The position numbers and the translations under genes were made by a program. The notes beneath the pieces were generated by a model. The model was given only the letters and a program-made list of their open reading frames with translations, had not been told where the DNA came from and ran no database searches. Below, one piece after another: positions 7,990 to 39,872 of a stretch of DNA of 64,000 nucleotides. Positions within the stretch are counted from its first letter, which is position 1. Each line of letters begins with the position of its first letter. The stretch spans positions 62,001 through 126,000 of the forward strand of contig JAAYVD010000117.1 of NCBI GenBank assembly GCA_012517355.1, read 5' to 3'. Source of the stretch: Candidatus Rifleibacteriota bacterium (GTDB lineage: Bacteria; Muiribacteriota; Ozemobacteria; Ozemobacterales; Ozemobacteraceae).

Positions 7990-9165
7990 TCAATTCCCGA
8001 AACCGGAGGAAGGCAGCTGGGTGATGGCCCCGGCGCCTACACTCAACCAGCCGGCATACGCGCGTTCCGTCGGACCGGTCCCTGGGTCATCCCCGATGGA
8101 CCAGTCGACAATCTCATTGTTGCCGTCCACCCGGGCAATGGGAATGGCCCCGAAATCGGCAATGGTGTAAAACCCGGAAGGCAGGTTGATCAGGTGGACA
8201 TATCCCTCGGTGTTGGTGGTGAACCCTCCGTAGATGATCGCGGGAGTCTGGTTGCCTGAAGAAGTCCGGTAATAGAGGACCAGGGGTTCTGTACCCTTCA
8301 GGGGGGTGTACAAACCTCCCGCCTGGGACCGGAGGATGCCGGCGATACCGCCCGTGTCGGGGAACTGCGGCGCAAGCCCGACATCCCCGATATACAGTCC
8401 GGTCAGGGCGGTTCCGTCAGCCCGCCCGGCGGCGATACTGGTGGGCGAGGTGACATCCGTTCCCCGGAAGGTGATTTTGGTTTTCGAATGGACCGTCACT
8501 TCGTGCTTCACTTCTTGGTAGCTGGGCATGGAGAACTTGAGATCCCAGGTGCCGGAGGGGATGCGGTCCATGAAGAAATATCCCTTGGCATTGGTGGTGG
8601 TGGTGTAGGAGGGGGCGCTGGCATTCTTGGCGTAGTACTCGACCTTGCCGAACATGATGGGGGCATTGTGGAGGGTGTCGACAAGGCGGCCCGTGATGTC
8701 GGCCGTATCCACCAGGCTGGAAGGAGCCCGGGACAGCGTGATGGTGCTGGAGCTCGTCTGGCCGCCGGTGATCTGGATCGATCCGAAGGAGGAGCGGAAG
8801 ATGCCGTTGGCGTCCTTGGCTTCGATGGAATAGAAGCCGGCGTTCACGTTGGTCAGGGTGAACGTGTTGTTGTTCAGCGCGCTGACCGTCACCACGACCG
8901 CGGTACCGGAATACAGGGACACGGTGATGGCCGCCCCCACGTCGTTGATCGGGGCGTTGGTCGCTGAATCCAGGAGGGTTCCGAACAACCCTCCGGTTCC
9001 TGCCGTGCCGGTGGTCGCCGTCCCGCTGGCCAGACTGGTGGCGGTGCTGCTCACCGAACTGCTGGGGTTCTTGTCCCCGCAGCCGCCGAGGACGACGACG
9101 CCGATCGCCAGGAGCAGGAGGAAAACGAACCCATTCAGGAAAACAGGGCGGTTGTCGGTATGCAT
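7990..9165 (-). CDS. Lipoprotein with carboxypeptidase-regulatory-like repeats
   Basis: This encodes 391 residues. The N-terminus MHTDNRPVFLNGFVFLLLLAI leads to the lipobox VVLGGC, so the mature protein starts at Cys-Gly-Asp-Lys followed by a Ser/Thr-rich linker. Two regions read like carboxypeptidase regulatory or Ig-like folds (GTLLDSATNAPIND and GRLVDTLHNAPIMFG, each followed by beta strands and G-x-F/Y patterns). The start at 9165 puts the lipobox at normal distance; an upstream in-frame ATG at 9243 would make the signal far too long. It is the last gene of the Tad machinery operon, so a pilus-associated outer-membrane role is inferred. Confidence 0.75.
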   Translation of the reverse strand: MHTDNRPVFLNGFVFLLLLAIGVVVLGGCGDKNPSSSVSSTATSLASGTATTGTAGTGGLFGTLLDSATNAPINDVGAAITVSLYSGTAVVVTVSALNNNTFTLTNVNAGFYSIEAKDANGIFRSSFGSIQITGGQTSSSTITLSRAPSSLVDTADITGRLVDTLHNAPIMFGKVEYYAKNASAPSYTTTTNAKGYFFMDRIPSGTWDLKFSMPSYQEVKHEVTVHSKTKITFRGTDVTSPTSIAAGRADGTALTGLYIGDVGLAPQFPDTGGIAGILRSQAGGLYTPLKGTEPLVLYYRTSSGNQTPAIIYGGFTTNTEGYVHLINLPSGFYTIADFGAIPIARVDGNNEIVDWSIGDDPGTGPTERAYAGWLSVGAGAITQLPSSGFGN

Positions 9166-32390: not shown

Positions 32391-33545
32391 TCAGTTGAAC
32401 GGGGTGCCGGTGGGGTAGGGGACCTCCAGGTGGCGGGCCACCGAGGCGGCGACGTCCCAGAAACCCTGGCGGATGCCCAGGTCGCGGCCCGGGCGGCCCT
32501 TCTGATACGACAGCAGGAAAGGATACTCGCGGGTGTGGTCGCTGCCCCGGTAGGTCGGGTCGCAGCCGTGGTCGGCGGTGAGGATCAGCAGGTCGTCAGC
32601 GGTCAGCCGGGCCAGGAACCCGCCGAGCCAGCGGTCGAAATCCTCGAGGGCCTTCTTGTACCCGGCAGTGTCGCGGCGATGGCCGAAAACCATGTCGGTG
32701 TCGACCAGGTTGGTGAAGATGAACCCGTCCTTCACCTGGTCGAGGGCGGCCATCGTCTTGCGCATGCCGTCGTCGTTGCCCTCGGTGCCGACGTGCGGGT
32801 CGACCCCGCGGCCGGCGAAGATGTCGTAGATCTTGCCGATGCCGTAGGTCGGGATCTTCCTGGCGTGCAGCACGTCGAGCAGGGTCTCGCCGCTGGGCGG
32901 CAGGCTGAAGTCGTGCCGGTGCGCCGTCCGCTTGTAGGCGCCGGAGGTGCCGACGAACGGCCGGGCGATGACGCGGCCCACCGCCATGTCGGGCGGTTGC
33001 AGCATGGCCCGGGCGGTCTCGCACATCTTGTACAACTCGGGAAGGGGTATCACTTCCTCGTGGGCCGCGATCTGGAAGACCGAGTCGGCCGAGGTGTAGA
33101 CGATCGGTTTCCCCGTCTTCACGTGCTCGTCGCCCAGCTTCATGATGATCTCGGTGCCCGAGGCGGGGTAGTTGCCGATGGTCGGGCGGCCGATCGCCTG
33201 CTCGAACCTCGCCAGCCAGTCTTTGGGGAACCCCTCGGGATACACGGGGAAGGGGAACTCGATGCGGATGCCCATCAGCTCCCAGTGGCCGGTCGTGGTG
33301 TCCTTGCCGGGCGAGAGCTCGTGGAGTTTCCCCCAGGAACCCTCGGCCTGGGGGACGGGGGGAACACCGGTCAGGGGCGTGATGTTGCCCAGGCCAAGCC
33401 GACCCATGGTGGGAAGGTGCAGGCCGCCGGTGGCCTTGGCCAGGTTGGGCAGGGTGCCCGACCCGACGTCGCCGTACTGGGCGGCATCGGGCATGGCCCC
33501 GATGCCGACACTGTCGAGAACGATGCAGATAGCGCGCTTGCTCAC
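32391..33545 (-). CDS. deoB: Phosphopentomutase (last gene of BMC operon)
   Basis: This encodes 384 residues. DeoB interconverts (deoxy)ribose-1-phosphate and -5-phosphate and uses two metal ions in an alkaline-phosphatase fold. Landmarks are the metal ligand and phosphorylated-Thr region IVLDSVGIGAMPDA and GKDTTTGHWELMG, NLVDTDMVFGHRRD, and the second metal set TADHGCDPTYRGSDHTREYPFL. The GTG start at 33545 follows AGGAGG. It lies 80 bp after rpiB, a gap filled by a 10-bp tandem repeat. Its place in the operon suggests it feeds pentose phosphate to the compartment pathway. Confidence 0.96.
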   Translation of the reverse strand: MSKRAICIVLDSVGIGAMPDAAQYGDVGSGTLPNLAKATGGLHLPTMGRLGLGNITPLTGVPPVPQAEGSWGKLHELSPGKDTTTGHWELMGIRIEFPFPVYPEGFPKDWLARFEQAIGRPTIGNYPASGTEIIMKLGDEHVKTGKPIVYTSADSVFQIAAHEEVIPLPELYKMCETARAMLQPPDMAVGRVIARPFVGTSGAYKRTAHRHDFSLPPSGETLLDVLHARKIPTYGIGKIYDIFAGRGVDPHVGTEGNDDGMRKTMAALDQVKDGFIFTNLVDTDMVFGHRRDTAGYKKALEDFDRWLGGFLARLTADDLLILTADHGCDPTYRGSDHTREYPFLLSYQKGRPGRDLGIRQGFWDVAASVARHLEVPYPTGTPFN

Positions 33546-33625: not shown

Positions 33626-34090
33626 TCATTCCCGCCGGTCATCTCCGGACAGCCGCTCCAGCCTCGTGATCTTGGCCACGCGGGCGGCGTGGCGGCCGGG
33701 GGCGGGCGGGGTTTCGAGCCAGAGATCGACGATCTGTTTCGCCAGGCCGGGGCCGATGACCATGCTGCCGAGGGTCAGCACGTTGGCATGGTTGTGCTCG
33801 CGGCTGTTGCGGGCCGTGTAGAGATCGTTGCAGCAGGCGGCGCGCACGCCCCGCACCTTGTTGGCGGCCATGCAGGACCCGACGCCGGCCCCGTCGACGA
33901 CGATGCCCAGGGTGTGCTCGTTGGCCGCCACCGCGCTCGCCACGAGGAAGGCGATGTCGGGATAATCGACCGGGTCGGTCGAAAAGGCTCCGACGTCCTC
34001 GAGCACCAGGTTCCTGGCCGTCAGGTGCTTCTTCAGTTCCTCTTTCAGCGGGAACCCGCCGTGGTCGGCGCCGATGACGATGCGTGGCAT
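33626..34090 (-). CDS. rpiB: RpiB family sugar-phosphate isomerase (BMC operon)
   Basis: This encodes 154 residues. RpiB isomerises ribose-5-phosphate and ribulose-5-phosphate. Segments IGADHGGFPLKEELKKHL, VVDGAGVGSCMAANKVRGVRAACCND (the usual active-site Cys is in the Gly-rich loop region), NDLYTARNSREHNHANVL and GSMVIGPGLAK are typical. The ATG shares one base with the stop of the trimeric shell gene (TGATG). RpiB in a BMC operon is a marker of sugar-phosphate compartment types. Confidence 0.93.
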   Translation of the reverse strand: MPRIVIGADHGGFPLKEELKKHLTARNLVLEDVGAFSTDPVDYPDIAFLVASAVAANEHTLGIVVDGAGVGSCMAANKVRGVRAACCNDLYTARNSREHNHANVLTLGSMVIGPGLAKQIVDLWLETPPAPGRHAARVAKITRLERLSGDDRRE

Positions 34091-34650
34091 CACAGATACT
34101 CCCGGAACAGTTCTTCGCGGGGCCGCGGGATGACCACCGTGGCGACCACCTGGCCTCGCCCCTCGAGGATGCCCAGGCCGGCGGCCACTCCGGCCTCGAC
34201 GGCGGCCACGTCGCCGGTGATCGTGTAGAAGCCCTTGCCGCCGATGGCCATGGCCAGCCGGATCTCGCACAGGTCTACGGCAGCCGCCTTGGCCGAGGCG
34301 TCGGCGGCCAGGATGGTGGACACCACGTCGAACGACTCGACCACGCCCAGGGCTCCGGTGGTGGGCACCGTGTTGGTGGCGGTCATGGCGGGGTAGATCT
34401 GGGGATGCAGGTTGGGGATCACCAGGTCGTTGACCAGGTAGCCCTGCCCGACCCGGATGCCGGCGGCCACGCTGGCCTCGACCGCCGCCACGTCGCCCCA
34501 GACCAGGACCATGTATTTGCCCGGGCAGATGGTGCGCGCCAGGACCAGCTCGACCGTGGCCGCCTTCAGCATCGTGTCGGTGGTGAGGTAGCCCGTGGCG
34601 ATGCTCGACAGCTCGATCAGGCCGATGGCGTGGTGGGAAATCGTCGTCAT
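34090..34650 (-). CDS. pduT: Trimeric BMC shell protein, PduT-like, with central Cys
   Basis: This encodes 186 residues, two BMC domains in tandem (residues 1-90: AIGLIELSSIATGYLTTDTML; residues 95-186: ALGVVESFDVVSTILAAD). Trimeric shell proteins form pseudohexameric tiles. Cys42 in RTICPGKYM sits where PduT carries its pore Cys that binds a 4Fe-4S cluster. With the RnfC-like gene just upstream (7-bp gap), this suggests electron transfer across the shell. Confidence 0.93.
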   Translation of the reverse strand: MTTISHHAIGLIELSSIATGYLTTDTMLKAATVELVLARTICPGKYMVLVWGDVAAVEASVAAGIRVGQGYLVNDLVIPNLHPQIYPAMTATNTVPTTGALGVVESFDVVSTILAADASAKAAAVDLCEIRLAMAIGGKGFYTITGDVAAVEAGVAAGLGILEGRGQVVATVVIPRPREELFREYL

Positions 34651-34657
34651 GGGATGG

Positions 34658-35971
34658 TCACTCCCTCACGATGGTGATGGCGTCGGCCGACACGTCGGAC
34701 ACCCGGCCGCTGATCGAGGCGTGGAGGGTGGCCCCCAGCTTCTTTTCGGGGATGGCGCCGATCTTCTGCCCCGCCTGGACGCGGTCGCCCGGCTTGACCA
34801 GCGGCAGGGAGGGAGCCCCGATGTGCATCTTCAGAGGCAGCCGGACCCGTTCGACCCGCAGCTCGACGGGGGTCAGCGGCGCCTTGCGGTCGTAGTCGAG
34901 CAGACCGATCTTCTTCAGCAGACGGTCGATGCTGACCCGGCGGGCGGGCCGCATCGGGTGGACCGCTGGCGCCCCCTGCCAGTCGGTCAGCTTGACCCCG
35001 CGGGCGAGGTGGGCCTTCTTGGCGGCCATGGCCATTTCGCGCGGGGGAAGGTCTTCGGGACAGGAGAACAGGGAACAAAGCCCGCATTCGCTGCAGAAGA
35101 CCGACTCGACCGAGTAGTTCTGGTCGTTGAAGGCTGCCAGCTGGGCGGTGCGCATGGCCTTGTGCGGTTTGATCGGGTAGCCGAGCAGGGCCCGCGGGCA
35201 GAGCTCGGTGCAGTCGGTGCACTGGTCGCAGGCCGAGCGGGCGATGCGGCTGTTGTCCTTCTGAGGCCGGCCCATCCTGCGGGTCAGCGGGTGGTCGGAG
35301 GGCAGGGCGATCAACCCGCCGCAGGTCTTGGTGACCACCTGCCGGTCGACGTCGTCGACCAGCCGGCCCATCATCGGGCCCCCGTCGATCACCGTCAACC
35401 CCGCCAGGTCGCGCAGGCCGGCCAGCGACAGGGCTTCCCGCATCGTGATGCCGACCGGCACCTCGACCGTGAGGGGGTGGGGAACCTTGCCGGTGACCGT
35501 GAGCGACTTCGTGATCATCGGCTGGCCGCGGCCCAGCAACAGCAGGGTCTCCACGTTGCTGACCACGCACCCGATGTTCAGAGGGATGCCGCCGAACGGG
35601 ATCAGCCGCCCGGAAGCCTCGTAGACCAGTTCGTATTCGTCGCCGGCCGGATAGAAGTCGCCGAGCGGCAACAGCTTGATGCGGGGGTCGTCGATCGCCT
35701 TTCCGAGGTGATCGAGCAGCGTCCCGTATTTCTTCTTGACCCCGATCAGGCCTTGTTTCGCCTGGGTCAGGTCGAGAGCGGCCCGCAGGCCCTTCAGGAA
35801 ATCGGCGGTGTGATGCTTGAGCAGTTCCTTGTCTTTGTGTAGGAGCGGCTCGCACTCAGCCCCGTTGACGATGAGAAAGTCGATGTTGCGGGCGGCCAGC
35901 TTGACGTGGGTGGGGAAACCCGCCCCGCCGCATCCGACGATGCCGAGTTCCTCGATGGGCCGTTCGCGCAT
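34658..35971 (-). CDS. pduS: RnfC/PduS-like electron-transfer protein (BMC)
   Basis: This encodes 437 residues. The N-terminal region holds the flavin/NADH-binding RnfC core with GIVGCGGAGFPTHVKL and NGAECEPLLHKDKELL. Two 4Fe-4S sites follow: CDQCTDCTELCPRALLG and CSECGLCSLFSCPEDL. The C-terminus has an SLBB/lipoyl-like tail (LVKPGDRVQAGQKIGAIP). PduS-type proteins reoxidise NADH and in Pdu compartments pair with PduT. The start at 35971 lies 17 bp after the dehydrogenase stop; the ribosome-binding site is weak. Confidence 0.93.
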   Translation of the reverse strand: MRERPIEELGIVGCGGAGFPTHVKLAARNIDFLIVNGAECEPLLHKDKELLKHHTADFLKGLRAALDLTQAKQGLIGVKKKYGTLLDHLGKAIDDPRIKLLPLGDFYPAGDEYELVYEASGRLIPFGGIPLNIGCVVSNVETLLLLGRGQPMITKSLTVTGKVPHPLTVEVPVGITMREALSLAGLRDLAGLTVIDGGPMMGRLVDDVDRQVVTKTCGGLIALPSDHPLTRRMGRPQKDNSRIARSACDQCTDCTELCPRALLGYPIKPHKAMRTAQLAAFNDQNYSVESVFCSECGLCSLFSCPEDLPPREMAMAAKKAHLARGVKLTDWQGAPAVHPMRPARRVSIDRLLKKIGLLDYDRKAPLTPVELRVERVRLPLKMHIGAPSLPLVKPGDRVQAGQKIGAIPEKKLGATLHASISGRVSDVSADAITIVRE

Positions 35972-35988: not shown

Positions 35989-37407
35989 TCAGACGATGCG
36001 GAAGGCGTCGACCAGCACGCACCGGCGCTGGCGCGTGAAGGTGCGGGTGCTGGTCAGCCCCTCGCCGGTCGGCGAGGCGATGGTGAAGGTGGTGAACCCT
36101 TCCCCGCCCAGGCCCAGGCCGGCATAGCTCGGCCCGTTCTTCACGAAGATCGAACAGTTGCACCGGACCGCCATCTTGTGCAGGTTGTCGAGGTTCTTGC
36201 TGTGCATGACCGCCGTGTGGTGGTAGCCATGCTCCACCTTGACCGCCAGGTCGATGGCGGCATGCACGTCGCGGACCCGCACCAATGGCACCACCGGCAT
36301 CAGCATCTCCTCGACCACGAAGGGGTGGTCGGGGCCAACCTCGCACAGCACCATCCGGATGTCCTCGGGGACCTTCACGCCGATCGCGTCGAGGATGAAG
36401 GAGGCGTTCTTGCCGACGAACCCGCGGTGGGGGCCGTGGGTCTTGGGATCGAGGACCGTCTTCTCGAGCTGCAGGATCTCGCGGGCGGATGCCTCATAGG
36501 CGCCGCTGGCGCGCAGGTGCTTCTTGAGATCCTCGGCCACCGACTCGACCACGATGATCTCCTTCTCGGCGATGCACAGGACATTGTTGTCGAGCGTGGC
36601 GCCCGAAATGATGTCGCGGGCCGCCTTCTTCAGGTCGGCGGTCTCGTCGACGACCGCCGGCGGGTTGCCCGGGCCGGCTGCGATGTACTTCTTGCCCGAC
36701 TTGGCGGCGGCGGCCACCACGGCCGGCCCGCCGGTGACGACGAGCAGGCGGATGTCAGGGTGGGTCATCAGCACCTGGGCGGTCTGGATGCTGGGCCTGG
36801 CGGTGGTTGTCATCAGGTTTTCCGGGCCGCCTGCCTCGACCACCGCCTCGTTCAGGATCGAGACGGCGAGCAGGCTGCACCGCGCCGCGGCCGGGTGGGG
36901 GCCGAAGACGACGGCGTTGCCCGCGGCCAGCATGCCGATCGAGTTGCAGATGACCGTCTCGGTCGGGTTGGTCGAGGGGGTGATCGCCCCGATCACCCCG
37001 TAGGGGGCCTGCTCGACCACCGTCAGGCCATGGTCGCCGGAATAGGCAACCGGCTGCAGGTCCTCAATGCCGGGGGTCTTGGTGATGGCCAGCTTGTTCT
37101 TCTGGATCTTGTCGGCCACGCGGCCGTAGCCCGTCTCCTCGTTGGCGACCCGGGCCAGGTCCTCCACGCGCTCCAGGGCCCGCCGACGCATGGTCTCGAT
37201 GATGGCCGCCCGCACCCGCAGCGGGAGTTCCACCAGTTTCCGCTGCGCCTGGCCGGCCGCCCGGATGGCGTCCTCGATGTTCTCGAAGACCCCCTTCTGC
37301 CCATGGCCGGGGGCGGCGGTCGGGGCGGCCAGCGGGGCCCCGGAAGCCTGGACGGCCTTCAGGACCTCCTGGACGATGAGGTTCAGTTCGTCTCTGGAAA
37401 CGGTCAT
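35989..37407 (-). CDS. pduP: CoA-acylating aldehyde dehydrogenase (BMC core enzyme)
   Basis: This encodes 472 residues. It oxidises an aldehyde with NAD and CoA to acyl-CoA inside the compartment. The catalytic Cys is in ATLDNNVLCIAEKE; the cofactor region AITPSTNPTETVICNSI and GGPAVVAAAAKSGKKYI are typical of PduP/EutE. Residues 1 to about 22 (SRDELNLIVQEVLKAVQASG) form an amphipathic helix followed by an Ala/Pro linker, the usual encapsulation peptide. GGAGG precedes the ATG. The aldehyde cannot be told from sequence; acetaldehyde is the likely guess. Confidence 0.94.
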   Translation of the reverse strand: MTVSRDELNLIVQEVLKAVQASGAPLAAPTAAPGHGQKGVFENIEDAIRAAGQAQRKLVELPLRVRAAIIETMRRRALERVEDLARVANEETGYGRVADKIQKNKLAITKTPGIEDLQPVAYSGDHGLTVVEQAPYGVIGAITPSTNPTETVICNSIGMLAAGNAVVFGPHPAAARCSLLAVSILNEAVVEAGGPENLMTTTARPSIQTAQVLMTHPDIRLLVVTGGPAVVAAAAKSGKKYIAAGPGNPPAVVDETADLKKAARDIISGATLDNNVLCIAEKEIIVVESVAEDLKKHLRASGAYEASAREILQLEKTVLDPKTHGPHRGFVGKNASFILDAIGVKVPEDIRMVLCEVGPDHPFVVEEMLMPVVPLVRVRDVHAAIDLAVKVEHGYHHTAVMHSKNLDNLHKMAVRCNCSIFVKNGPSYAGLGLGGEGFTTFTIASPTGEGLTSTRTFTRQRRCVLVDAFRIV

Positions 37408-37470: not shown

Positions 37471-37755
37471 TTACTTCCGGACCCGCTCCTGGTCCATGAC
37501 CACCGCGTCGACGATGCCGGCGATCGCGGCATCCACCGGCTTGTTGAGCGTGCGGTCGGTGAGGCGGGCGGAACTGCCGGCGACCAGCAGCACCGTTTCC
37601 GCCGCTCCCGACCCGACGGCATCGGCGGCGATGACGAACTTGCCGGTCGGCTTGGAATCGATGGTCAACTCCTCGACGACGAGAAGCTTCAAGCCTTCCA
37701 GACGCTCATCCTTGCGGGTGCAGACGACCGTCCCGCAGACGCGGCCGAGATTCAT
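37471..37755 (-). CDS. eutN: Pentameric BMC vertex protein EutN/CcmL family
   Basis: This encodes 94 residues, full length. EutN/CcmL pentamers cap the vertices of the polyhedral shell. Segments MNLGRVCGTVVCTRKDERLEGLKLL, VIAADAVGSGAAETVLLVAGSSAR and PVDAAIAGIVD are characteristic. It lies 19 bp after the hexameric shell gene and 63 bp before the aldehyde dehydrogenase gene. Confidence 0.96.
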   Translation of the reverse strand: MNLGRVCGTVVCTRKDERLEGLKLLVVEELTIDSKPTGKFVIAADAVGSGAAETVLLVAGSSARLTDRTLNKPVDAAIAGIVDAVVMDQERVRK

Positions 37756-37774: not shown

Positions 37775-38068
37775 TTACTTCTTGCCGGGGGTCTGCTCGC
37801 GGATGGGCAGGACCTCGTCGAGGTTGGCGTGGGGGCGGGGAATGACATGGACGCAGACCAGCTCGCCGATCTTCTTGGCGGCGGCCGCGCCGGCGTCGGT
37901 GGCGGCCTTGACGGCGGCCACGTCACCGCGCACGAAAGCGGTCACGTATCCGGACCCGATCTTCTCCCAGCCGACGAGACGGACGTTGGCCGCCTTCACC
38001 ATGGCGTCGCTGGCTTCGATCAGAGAGGTCAAACCTTTGGTTTCGATCATTCCGAGGGCCTCTTGCAT
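37775..38068 (-). CDS. pduA: Hexameric BMC shell protein, PduA/EutM-like
   Basis: This encodes 97 residues, one BMC domain. The segments [20 protein letters not shown], the pore loop [15 protein letters not shown] and [17 protein letters not shown] are close to PduA/EutM. KIGSG forms a small polar pore that admits small metabolites. AAGGAGG precedes the ATG. It is the only hexameric shell gene here, so it is probably the main facet protein. Confidence 0.97.
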
Positions 38069-38112: not shown

Positions 38113-38757
38113 TCAGGCGATGATTTCGACGCGGTCGCCGGTCTTGACGTTGCCGGCGTTCGCTTCATCGGTGTCGATGTGGAAATCGAGGGCGAACTGG
38201 TCGTTGACCCGCACCAGGACGTTGCAGAACACCACGGCCTTGGGGCCCGAGGTCTTGATGCTGATGCGGTCCATGTCTTTCAGGCCGAACTTCTCGGCTT
38301 CCCGGGTATGCATGTGCAGGTGCCGGGCGGCCACGATGACGCCTTCCTTCAGGTTGACGGCGCCCTTGGGCCCCACCACGATCAGGCCCGGACTGCCCTT
38401 GGTGTCGCCGGAATCGCGCACCACCGCGGGAATGCCCAGGGCAAACGAATCGGTGACCGAGATCTCGATCTGGGTGGCCTTGCGGACCGGGCCCAGGATG
38501 CGGCATTTCTCGATGACGCCCTTTTTGCCGACCAGCATGACGCATTCCTCGGCGGCGAACTGCCCGGGCTGCGACAGGTCTTTCATCACCTTCAGCTTGT
38601 AGCCGGGCCCGAACAGGGTTTCCAGGTCTTCCTGCGCCAGGTGGATGTGCCGACCGCTGACCCCGACCGGGATCGTTCCGGGCTTGATGCGGTCCTGCAG
38701 GTCGATCTGCTTGAGCACCTCACCTACGATCTGTTTCACTTTCTTCTCGTCGAGCAT
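38113..38757 (-). CDS. pduL: PduL-type phosphate propanoyl/acetyltransferase
   Basis: This encodes 214 residues. PduL converts acyl-CoA and phosphate to acyl-phosphate and recycles CoA inside the shell. Zinc-site regions are [21 protein letters not shown] and [19 protein letters not shown]. Residues 1 to about 20 ([20 protein letters not shown]) form an amphipathic helix like an encapsulation peptide and share IVxEVLK with the aldehyde dehydrogenase tag. The ATG at 38757 is preceded by AAAGGA, 5 bp after the previous gene. Confidence 0.94.
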
Positions 38758-38762
38758 CTCTG

Positions 38763-39836
38763 CTACCGTCCTTTCCCCTGGACCAGCCGGTCCAGTTCCT
38801 GATCGTCCGTCCATGTGGCCTGGGGGCTCCGGGGCCCGTCGGCGGGACCTCGATCACCTGTCGTCGCCAAGGGTACAAACACGGTCGGGGCCGGAGGGCT
38901 CCCTGGACGCGGGGCCATTATATCACACCCGGGAAGGCGTTCAAGGGGGAGGGTGGTGAAAATCAGCAGCCCTTGCGCCGCGGCCAGGGAGGCGAGTTTG
39001 CCCAGGTTGGCGGGCGCCGCATACGGCGCCGCTGCCGGCAGCAGGGCTCCGCGGCAGCCCAGGTCGGCCAGCATGGCGACCGAGGTCTCGCCGGTGAAGG
39101 CGCCATGGGAGGCCCAATGGACCGTGGTGGAAACCAGGCGGTTCTTCAGGGCCGGGAACAGGTCCTGGAAGACCGGGATCATCGGCGGGTCGAGGACGAA
39201 CAGCAGGCCGGGACAGGCATGGGCGGCCTGGAACAGCCGGTCGCCCCGGGCCTGCAGGTCGCGCCGCGTCTGGGCGGCGACCCGGACCAGCACATGGGAG
39301 GAAGGGGACCGGCCCTGGCTCATGCCGAGGGCGTCGGCCACCTCGCGGGCCCAGTCGGTCAGCGGGCGGCCGGCGGGAAGCACCCGGACCCCGGTGCGGT
39401 GCAGCTCGCGCACGTCGTCGGCGGTCATCGCCGAGCGGGGATGCGTGGCCGGCGTGGCCACCCCCGGGGCCGCCACGGAGTCGGTCAGCGTGGCCAGTTC
39501 GTGGGGAAGGATGGGTTCGAGGCCGAGGTCTGACCAGGCTTTTGGGGGGCGCGCGGGAGCCGGGACGAGGCCCCGGACCCGGGGGCCGTCCAGGCCGTGC
39601 AGGAGGTTCCACAGGGATTCCAGGGCCGGCGAGTCGCGCAGCCCCAGGGCGAGCTTGGTGAGCAGGTCGGCGGGCGGCTCGTGCAGGATCACCGCAGCGA
39701 ACCGGCCGAACCCGAGCCACTGCACCGATTCCAGGCGGGTGACCAGGAAGGCTTCGGGGTCGAGGCCGAAGGGGGGCTGGCACAGAATCTCGCCGGTGAG
39801 GTGCGGGGAAACGATCAGCAGGGGGCGCGGGTTCAT
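38763..39836 (-). CDS. First gene of BMC operon: flavoprotein-like domain fused to a degenerate triosephosphate-isomerase half barrel
   Basis: This encodes 357 residues if started at 39836 (360 from the in-frame ATG at 39845). Residues 1 to about 105 resemble BMC-associated flavoprotein-like domains (ADLLTKLALGLRDSPALESL). Residues about 135-170 (ADDVRELHRTGVRVLPAGRPLTDWARE) resemble the 'TPLARD' segment seen in BMC proteins. Residues about 200-300 match TPI: LDPPMIPVFQDLF, then GAFTGETSVAMLADLGC, almost identical to TPI's conserved text. The catalytic GHSERR is replaced by LPAAAPY, and the N-terminal NWK is missing, so TPI activity is unlikely. A structural or metabolite-binding role is inferred. 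Confidence 0.7.
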   Translation of the reverse strand: MNPRPLLIVSPHLTGEILCQPPFGLDPEAFLVTRLESVQWLGFGRFAAVILHEPPADLLTKLALGLRDSPALESLWNLLHGLDGPRVRGLVPAPARPPKAWSDLGLEPILPHELATLTDSVAAPGVATPATHPRSAMTADDVRELHRTGVRVLPAGRPLTDWAREVADALGMSQGRSPSSHVLVRVAAQTRRDLQARGDRLFQAAHACPGLLFVLDPPMIPVFQDLFPALKNRLVSTTVHWASHGAFTGETSVAMLADLGCRGALLPAAAPYAAPANLGKLASLAAAQGLLIFTTLPLERLPGCDIMAPRPGSPPAPTVFVPLATTGDRGPADGPRSPQATWTDDQELDRLVQGKGR

Positions 39837-39843
39837 CGCCGTC

Positions 39844-39872
39844 ATGATAGAGGACCGGGCGGCGGAAATCAA
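39844..39872 (-). promoter_or_regulatory. Sigma-70-type promoter of the BMC operon
   Basis: On the minus strand, -35 TTGATT (39867-39872), a 17-bp spacer and -10 TATCAT (39844-39849) lie directly before the first gene. Seven bases separate the -10 from the ATG at 39836, so a leaderless mRNA is predicted. No ribosome-binding site is seen. Confidence 0.6.

Follow-up and report, generated by a model that had tools for sequence, protein, structure and literature searches.

Why should the operon of a bacterial microcompartment (BMC) open with a gene whose product carries a piece of triosephosphate isomerase (TPI) that has lost its catalytic residues? The question is raised by a gene, here called FlavTPI, in a 64,000-nucleotide stretch of Candidatus Rifleibacteriota DNA (assembly GCA_012517355.1, contig JAAYVD010000117.1, positions 62,001 to 126,000; hereafter the window). 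An earlier note, made from the sequence alone, had read the gene as a flavoprotein-like domain joined to a dead TPI half barrel, and the open reading frame (ORF) is indeed found where it was placed, at 38763-39845 on the (-) strand, encoding 360 aa. Here we show that the TPI portion is genuine and that its dimer-interface loop is kept in every homologue while its catalytic residues are gone from all of them. The non-catalytic, structural nature of FlavTPI is well supported. Its parts, in window coordinates, are as follows.

38763..39845, (-): FlavTPI gene, 360 aa, first gene of a sugar-phosphate-utilising (SPU)-type BMC operon, with 17 full-length members in one family
39480..39824, (-): degenerate HFCD/BMC-flavoprotein-like domain, residues 8-122, from hhalign to free Riflebacteria flavoproteins
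39633..39656, (-): KLALGLRD, residues 64-71, a retained flavoprotein motif (L67, G68 and D71 invariant in the alignment)
39312..39431, (-): EutQ-N/PduM/TIGR02536-like module, residues 139-178 (TADDVRELH...LTDWAREVADALG), from profile matches
38946..39308, (-): TPI-derived part-barrel, β1 to β5, residues 180-300, from Pfam, hhalign, AlphaFold2 fold search and PDB profile search
39072..39104, (-): GAFTGETSVAM, residues 248-258, equivalent to TPI loop 3/helix 3 (human 72-82), the dimer-interface loop, kept in all homologues
39021..39050, (-): GALLPAAAPY, residues 266-275, in place of TPI loop 4 (YVIIGHSERR), from column analysis
38766..38945, (-): family-specific tail, residues 301-360 (CDI[IM]A...PLY...GAxxxN..L...RKG), with no TPI match

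Residues ~184-300 derive from TPI, of which they represent the front portion only. The similarity is not a product of chance: the Pfam TIM profile (PF00121) matches residues 234-269 above its gathering cut-off (profile positions 54-89, E 5.9e-6) and matches 17/17 members, and hhalign of the family against 83 TPIs gives a probability of 98.6% (E 6e-16) over TPI positions 15-127. An AlphaFold2 model built from the 17-row alignment (mean pLDDT 77.7, pTM 0.47) places five beta-alpha units at 184-297, so that residues 184-300 are predicted to form a TIM-like partial barrel. The best 50 PDB fold matches of this model are all TPI or L-erythrulose-1-phosphate isomerase, with about 125 residues aligned at roughly 3-5 Å for most, and an hmmsearch of the PDB with the family profile returned 137 distinct chains at E <= 0.1, of which the 60 listed are again all one or other of these two enzymes. 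While the proposed TPI homology therefore stands, its extent was underestimated, since the five strands β1-β5 amount to slightly over half a barrel; one homologue (L023) ends soon after β4. FlavTPI scores 16.7 bits with TIGR00419, below the equivalog cut-off of 130.6 bits. By function it is no TPI.

What has been kept and what has been lost within the part-barrel differ sharply. The conserved TPI text GAFTGETSVAMLADLGC and the LDPP strand upstream of it are both present, as first noticed, and in human TPI numbering G72, A73, T75, G76, E77, S79 and M82 are invariant in 17/17 members, with F or Y at position 74 in all. The catalytic residues N11, K13, H95 and E97, by contrast, occur in 0/17. The GHSER motif is absent from 17/17 (an S at position 96 in a few members is there by chance), and GHSERR is supplanted across the family by a semi-conserved GA[IL][LIV]PxxxPY, which in the window gives the LPAAAPY that had been pointed out, along with the absent NWK start and the missing second half of the barrel. 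With that half have gone the catalytic E165 and the phosphate-binding loops (6-8). In TPI structures T75 and E77 of loop 3 touch N11, E97 and R98 of the other subunit. Loop 3 of each TPI subunit interdigitates with its neighbour, and helix-3 residues form the socket for residue 45 of the partner (PMC4664265). FlavTPI retains the donor side of the TPI dimer interface and has lost the acceptor side; with the acceptor side gone, self-docking cannot use the normal pocket, whereas docking on an authentic TPI could.

The N-terminal part is related to BMC flavoproteins, as had been supposed. Residues 1-178 align by hhalign (E 1.2e-11) with free-standing flavoproteins of ~240 residues from genomes of the same family. 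Some of these flavoproteins exceed the PF02441 cut-off; no match to PF02441 was obtained in any of the 17 FlavTPI members. Against the PDB the N-terminal profile gives weak matches (best E 0.024), mostly to HFCD proteins. A separate model of this part (pLDDT 85.7, pTM 0.63) finds DmrB (3wis) as its top fold match, at a non-significant E of 0.033 and with other alpha/beta folds equally close, and the fold assignment therefore rests mainly on sequence. Relative to the free flavoproteins, FlavTPI has kept KxxLGxRD, lost ~40 residues and turned the PLSLNT of the flavin mononucleotide (FMN) site into EPPADL, and these last two changes make FMN binding doubtful. The TPLARD-like segment recognised in the earlier note lies in the module that follows, where the N-terminus of EutQ (NF012001) is matched in 9 of the 17 members (best 6.3e-4) and TIGR02536 in 1 (9.3e-5). 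The free-standing ~240-aa flavoproteins (L150-L155, for example L152:9431-10117), which lie outside the BMC operon, carry SLNTLAKFALGIRDS and a TPxAR-like tail, and the tail has a weak match to PduM (E 0.0079).

FlavTPI is the first gene of its operon, as originally claimed, and its stop codon is separated by 5 bp from the start codon of the next gene. The order is FlavTPI-PduL/PTAC-BMC-H-BMC-P-AldDH-PduS/RnfC-BMC-T-RpiB, followed by deoB.

38113..38757, (-): PTAC, PduL-type phosphate propanoyl/acetyltransferase (PF06130, E 5e-78)
37775..38068, (-): BMC-H shell protein, EutM-like (PF00936; NF012018)
37471..37755, (-): BMC-P shell vertex protein, EutN/CcmL (PF03319)
35989..37407, (-): acylating aldehyde dehydrogenase (AldDH), BMC type (NF011927, E 2.5e-205)
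34658..35971, (-): PduS/RnfC-like electron-transfer protein (PF01512, PF13375, 4Fe-4S domains)
34090..34650, (-): tandem BMC-T shell protein, PduT-like (profile matches)
33626..34090, (-): RpiB-type sugar-phosphate isomerase (PF02502, E 2.7e-50)
32391..33545, (-): phosphopentomutase DeoB, next gene downstream of RpiB (NF003766, E 9e-153)
L038 7647-9155, (-): flavoprotein-DeoC fusion on another contig, a single ORF beside two BMC-P genes (G000:C95:43649-45154)

SPU microcompartments are defined by DeoC, RpiB, AldDH, PTAC and shell genes, and have been proposed to metabolise the products of DNA degradation (Axen et al. 2014, PMC4207490; Sutter et al. 2021, PMC8217296). The window has shell genes together with AldDH, PTAC and RpiB (PF02502), and the DeoC aldolase (PF01791), absent from the main operon, is found with two BMC-P genes at a satellite locus on another contig of the genome. 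The FlavTPI operon is accordingly that of an SPU (deoxyribose-phosphate) microcompartment of Candidatus Riflebacteria. At the satellite locus a single ORF encodes, in order, an encapsulation-peptide-like helix, a flavoprotein domain and DeoC. Seventeen genomes of the family encode this fusion at full or nearly full length, and others give DeoC-only matches. Direct homology between its flavoprotein half and the flavoprotein part of FlavTPI was not significant (E 0.33); both relate to the free flavoproteins. Elsewhere in the genome a lone BMC-domain protein of ~110 aa with an N-terminal extension (G000:C34:138089-138271; L037 about 7990-8370, -) directly precedes a TrmO/TsaA-like gene, with no other shell gene seen nearby.

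Linkage to the compartment is strict. Full-length FlavTPI is encoded in 17/24 genomes of the window's family, covering 10/11 genera, and in 0/16 genomes of other families of the phylum. It lies directly upstream of PTAC in 17/17, and the whole eight-gene order is retained wherever the contig is long enough, so that the BMC context expected of homologues holds for all of them. Four of the 7 family genomes without FlavTPI are from a single genus, the only one of the family in which BMC-P genes are wholly absent, and there the two have been lost together; in the other 3, which are 70-84% complete, the only BMC-P genes are the two on the DeoC satellite contig. Across Riflebacteria, BMC-P genes occur in 36/40 genomes, the 4 without them forming one genus. 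Outside Riflebacteria no FlavTPI was seen among the matches listed in a pattern scan (80 of at least 101 confirmed relatives), nor did two further searches, covering 295 and 341 genomes, give any at E <= 1e-13, although these apparently sampled one phylum twice and had no positive control. No equivalent of the architecture was found in the literature on BMC loci (PMC4207490, PMC8217296), in agreement with the earlier impression, and to our knowledge the combination of a flavoprotein-like domain, a TPxAR module and a dead TPI part-barrel has not been described so far.

FlavTPI is maintained by selection, yet evolves faster than its operon neighbours. Its identity is 28-44% between most genera, against about 65-80% for AldDH of the same operons. 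Between close relatives its overall dN/dS is about 0.2-0.45. In genus-level pairs the TPI part gives about 0.3-0.45, lower in a second genus, and loop 3, where purifying selection is strongest, about 0.1-0.2. The family has 22 invariant columns. In a tree, built on only 108 columns, FlavTPI forms one separate clade on a long branch, apart from TPIs, and ranking TPIs by profile score as a guide to an origin from the host TPI or from those of SPU loci did not single out BMC-encoded TPIs. Two loci outside Riflebacteria, L083 and L127 (Elusimicrobia), have a complete TPI as the gene immediately upstream of PTAC; in L083 it and PTAC are followed by BMC-H, BMC-P, AldDH, BMC-T and RpiB, the order seen here, and then by two BMC-P genes and DeoC. 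The simplest history, which the tree cannot test, may be that a TPI gene in the slot before PTAC was truncated and fused to a flavoprotein. In the SPU loci of Neobacillus and Bacillus, TPI has an extra N-terminal helix and lies upstream of RpiB. This helix, MEQSIESYIKN(L/I)VR (L075 9857-10696 in Neobacillus; L088 5056-5910 in a Bacillus metagenome-assembled genome), looks like an encapsulation peptide.

What, then, might such a protein do? An invariant loop 3 alongside lost catalytic residues suggests a part used in docking or assembly rather than an enzyme. Tentatively, and at somewhat less than even likelihood, we favour FlavTPI as a non-catalytic assembly or adaptor protein of the SPU microcompartment to which TPI is docked through loop 3; of the specific mechanisms, docking of this kind seems to fit best, and we hold it with the same reserve. 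The N-terminal module would associate with BMC cargo or shell, as PduM does, and the TPI part would be a one-sided decoy: with loop 3 and helix 3 it would dock on an authentic TPI subunit, in the pocket next to the active site, as loop 3 does in the normal dimer. In this way TPI would be kept at the compartment, or within it, where glyceraldehyde-3-phosphate and acetaldehyde are made by the flavoprotein-DeoC fusion, and would draw off the triose while AldDH and PTAC handle the acetaldehyde. That the donor side is kept and the acceptor side lost is what leads to the more far-reaching proposal, possible but rather doubtful, that a dead remnant of an oligomeric enzyme, pared down to its former dimerisation surface and joined to an organelle module, takes hold of the active enzyme in a one-sided heterodimer, without an encapsulation peptide.

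The adaptor reading is supported by the conservation of the operon across 10 genera and 17 genomes, by the joint absence of BMC-P and FlavTPI in one genus, by the column pattern and purifying selection at loop 3, by the complete TPI before PTAC in L083 and L127 and the peptide-like helix on the TPIs of Neobacillus and Bacillus, by the fusion of DeoC to a BMC flavoprotein beside two BMC-P genes and by the complete TPI (G000:C112:8720-9457) that the same genome retains within a GAPDH-PGK-TPI gene cluster. PduM, whose C-terminus resembles the TPxAR module, connects the enzyme core with the shell (PMC9132943). Several observations weigh on the other side. SPU-type loci in other families of Riflebacteria have neither FlavTPI nor TPI beside PTAC, so recruitment of TPI is not universal. 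The link to PduM is weak (E 0.064 in 1/17 members and 0.0079 for a free flavoprotein). The 83 TPIs were picked by a pattern containing GA[FY]TG, so that their values in those columns are not independent, although the 17/17 of FlavTPI is. Homodimers of TPI are very stable, and any heterodimer would have to form in competition with them. FlavTPI shows no obvious encapsulation peptide at its N-terminus, so that a place for it within the compartment is presumptive.

What has been seen of linkage, fusion and conservation also fits a PduM-like protein that links core to shell or sets compartment size. The part-barrel would then serve in self-association only, either pairing with a second part-barrel or placing its loop 3 against the flavoprotein domain of the same protein, and TPI would not be recruited. 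The SPU compartments elsewhere in the phylum that have no TPI in the locus speak for this; however, FlavTPI itself lacks those residues of loops 1 and 4 by which loop 3 is normally received, so that self-docking explains the invariance of loop 3 less easily, and we regard this account as possible, if on the unlikely side. By the same loop-3 logic a decoy half-subunit could form mixed dimers that inhibit TPI, or sequester its monomers, and so regulate triose flux, and TPI made monomeric by removal of loop 3 does lose activity (PMC4664265). Such a regulator is nonetheless improbable, given that strict BMC linkage points to a role in the compartment and that drainage of glyceraldehyde-3-phosphate would favour an active TPI.

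Three further possibilities involve the chemistry or the survival of the protein. The earlier note had offered a metabolite sensor beside a scaffold and a cargo organiser; the conservation pattern favours the latter two. A metabolite or redox sensor, with FMN bound by the flavoprotein part or triose phosphate by the TPI part, could draw on the kept KxxLGxRD motif of HFCD flavoproteins, but the ~40-residue deletion and the EPPADL-like text replacing PLSLNT count against the first site and the loss of loops 6-8 and of N11, K13, H95 and E97 (17/17) against the second. Triose-phosphate sensing through a TPI site stripped of all its catalytic and phosphate-binding elements is unlikely, and a sensor of either kind quite improbable. 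The conserved tail, with strands predicted at 323-327 and 343-346, would allow a small barrel, reduced yet complete, that has acquired a new activity and in which short strands at CDI[IM]A, xFVPLA and GAxxxN replace β6-β8. This is decidedly improbable: the tail is modelled with low confidence, gives no TPI profile match (E 0.23) and is shortened in two or three homologues, and only E253, in loop 3, stands out as a possible catalytic residue. Low overall identity (28-44%, against about 65-80% for AldDH) is what would be expected of a relic, a fusion gene decayed to a pseudogene and retained through its place in the operon. We rejected this scarcely credible reading because the ORF is open in 17 genomes, the 22 columns are invariant and dN/dS (about 0.2-0.45 for the protein as a whole, about 0.1-0.2 for loop 3 in genus-level pairs) indicates purifying selection.

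For most BMC cargo, short encapsulation peptides are believed to do the targeting. If TPI is docked as we suggest, FlavTPI would represent another targeting route, in which a pseudoenzyme keeping only the dimer-docking face of TPI brings a glycolytic enzyme from the cytosol to a bacterial organelle with no such peptide involved. It would also offer a concrete view of how SPU compartments handle glyceraldehyde-3-phosphate, the other product of DeoC, and would give the poorly understood accessory proteins of the flavoprotein, EutQ and PduM type a partner that can be tested. What is predicted is specific and comes down to two proteins, one loop and two residues (T251 and E253).

FlavTPI shares features with several known systems and differs from each. 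It is homologous to TPI (TIM, PF00121) over β1-β5 and identical to it at the dimer-interface residues of loop 3/helix 3, but has no catalytic or phosphate-binding residues, ends its barrel after β5, is fused to another domain and forms a long-branch clade. With BMC flavoproteins of the TIGR02536/PF02441 (HFCD) type it shares the N-terminal domain order, KxxLGxRD and a C-terminal TPxAR module; it is ~40 residues shorter in that region, its FMN-site text is degenerate and a TPI fragment is attached. The TPIs of SPU loci, in Atribacteria, where a complete TIM has been reported (PMC4207490), and in L083, L127, L075 and L088, belong to the same type of BMC, and those of L083 and L127 occupy the same position before PTAC, but they are complete, with catalytic motifs intact. 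PduM (TIGR04493), a structural protein of the Pdu microcompartment with reportedly no known homologues outside Pdu compartments (PMC12108088), is likewise BMC-encoded and non-enzymatic and has a weakly similar C-terminal module; it differs in lacking a TPI part and in having an N-terminal signal helix (PMC12108088), and the similarity is below the family cut-off. By score FlavTPI, which does not reach the 50 bits of that profile, would not be classed as a PduM, yet PduM is the closest functional precedent for its N-terminal module. In the flavoprotein-DeoC fusion of the same genome, finally, a BMC flavoprotein is likewise joined to a triose-related enzyme from this pathway, there with DeoC intact and with a flavoprotein part of another subfamily.
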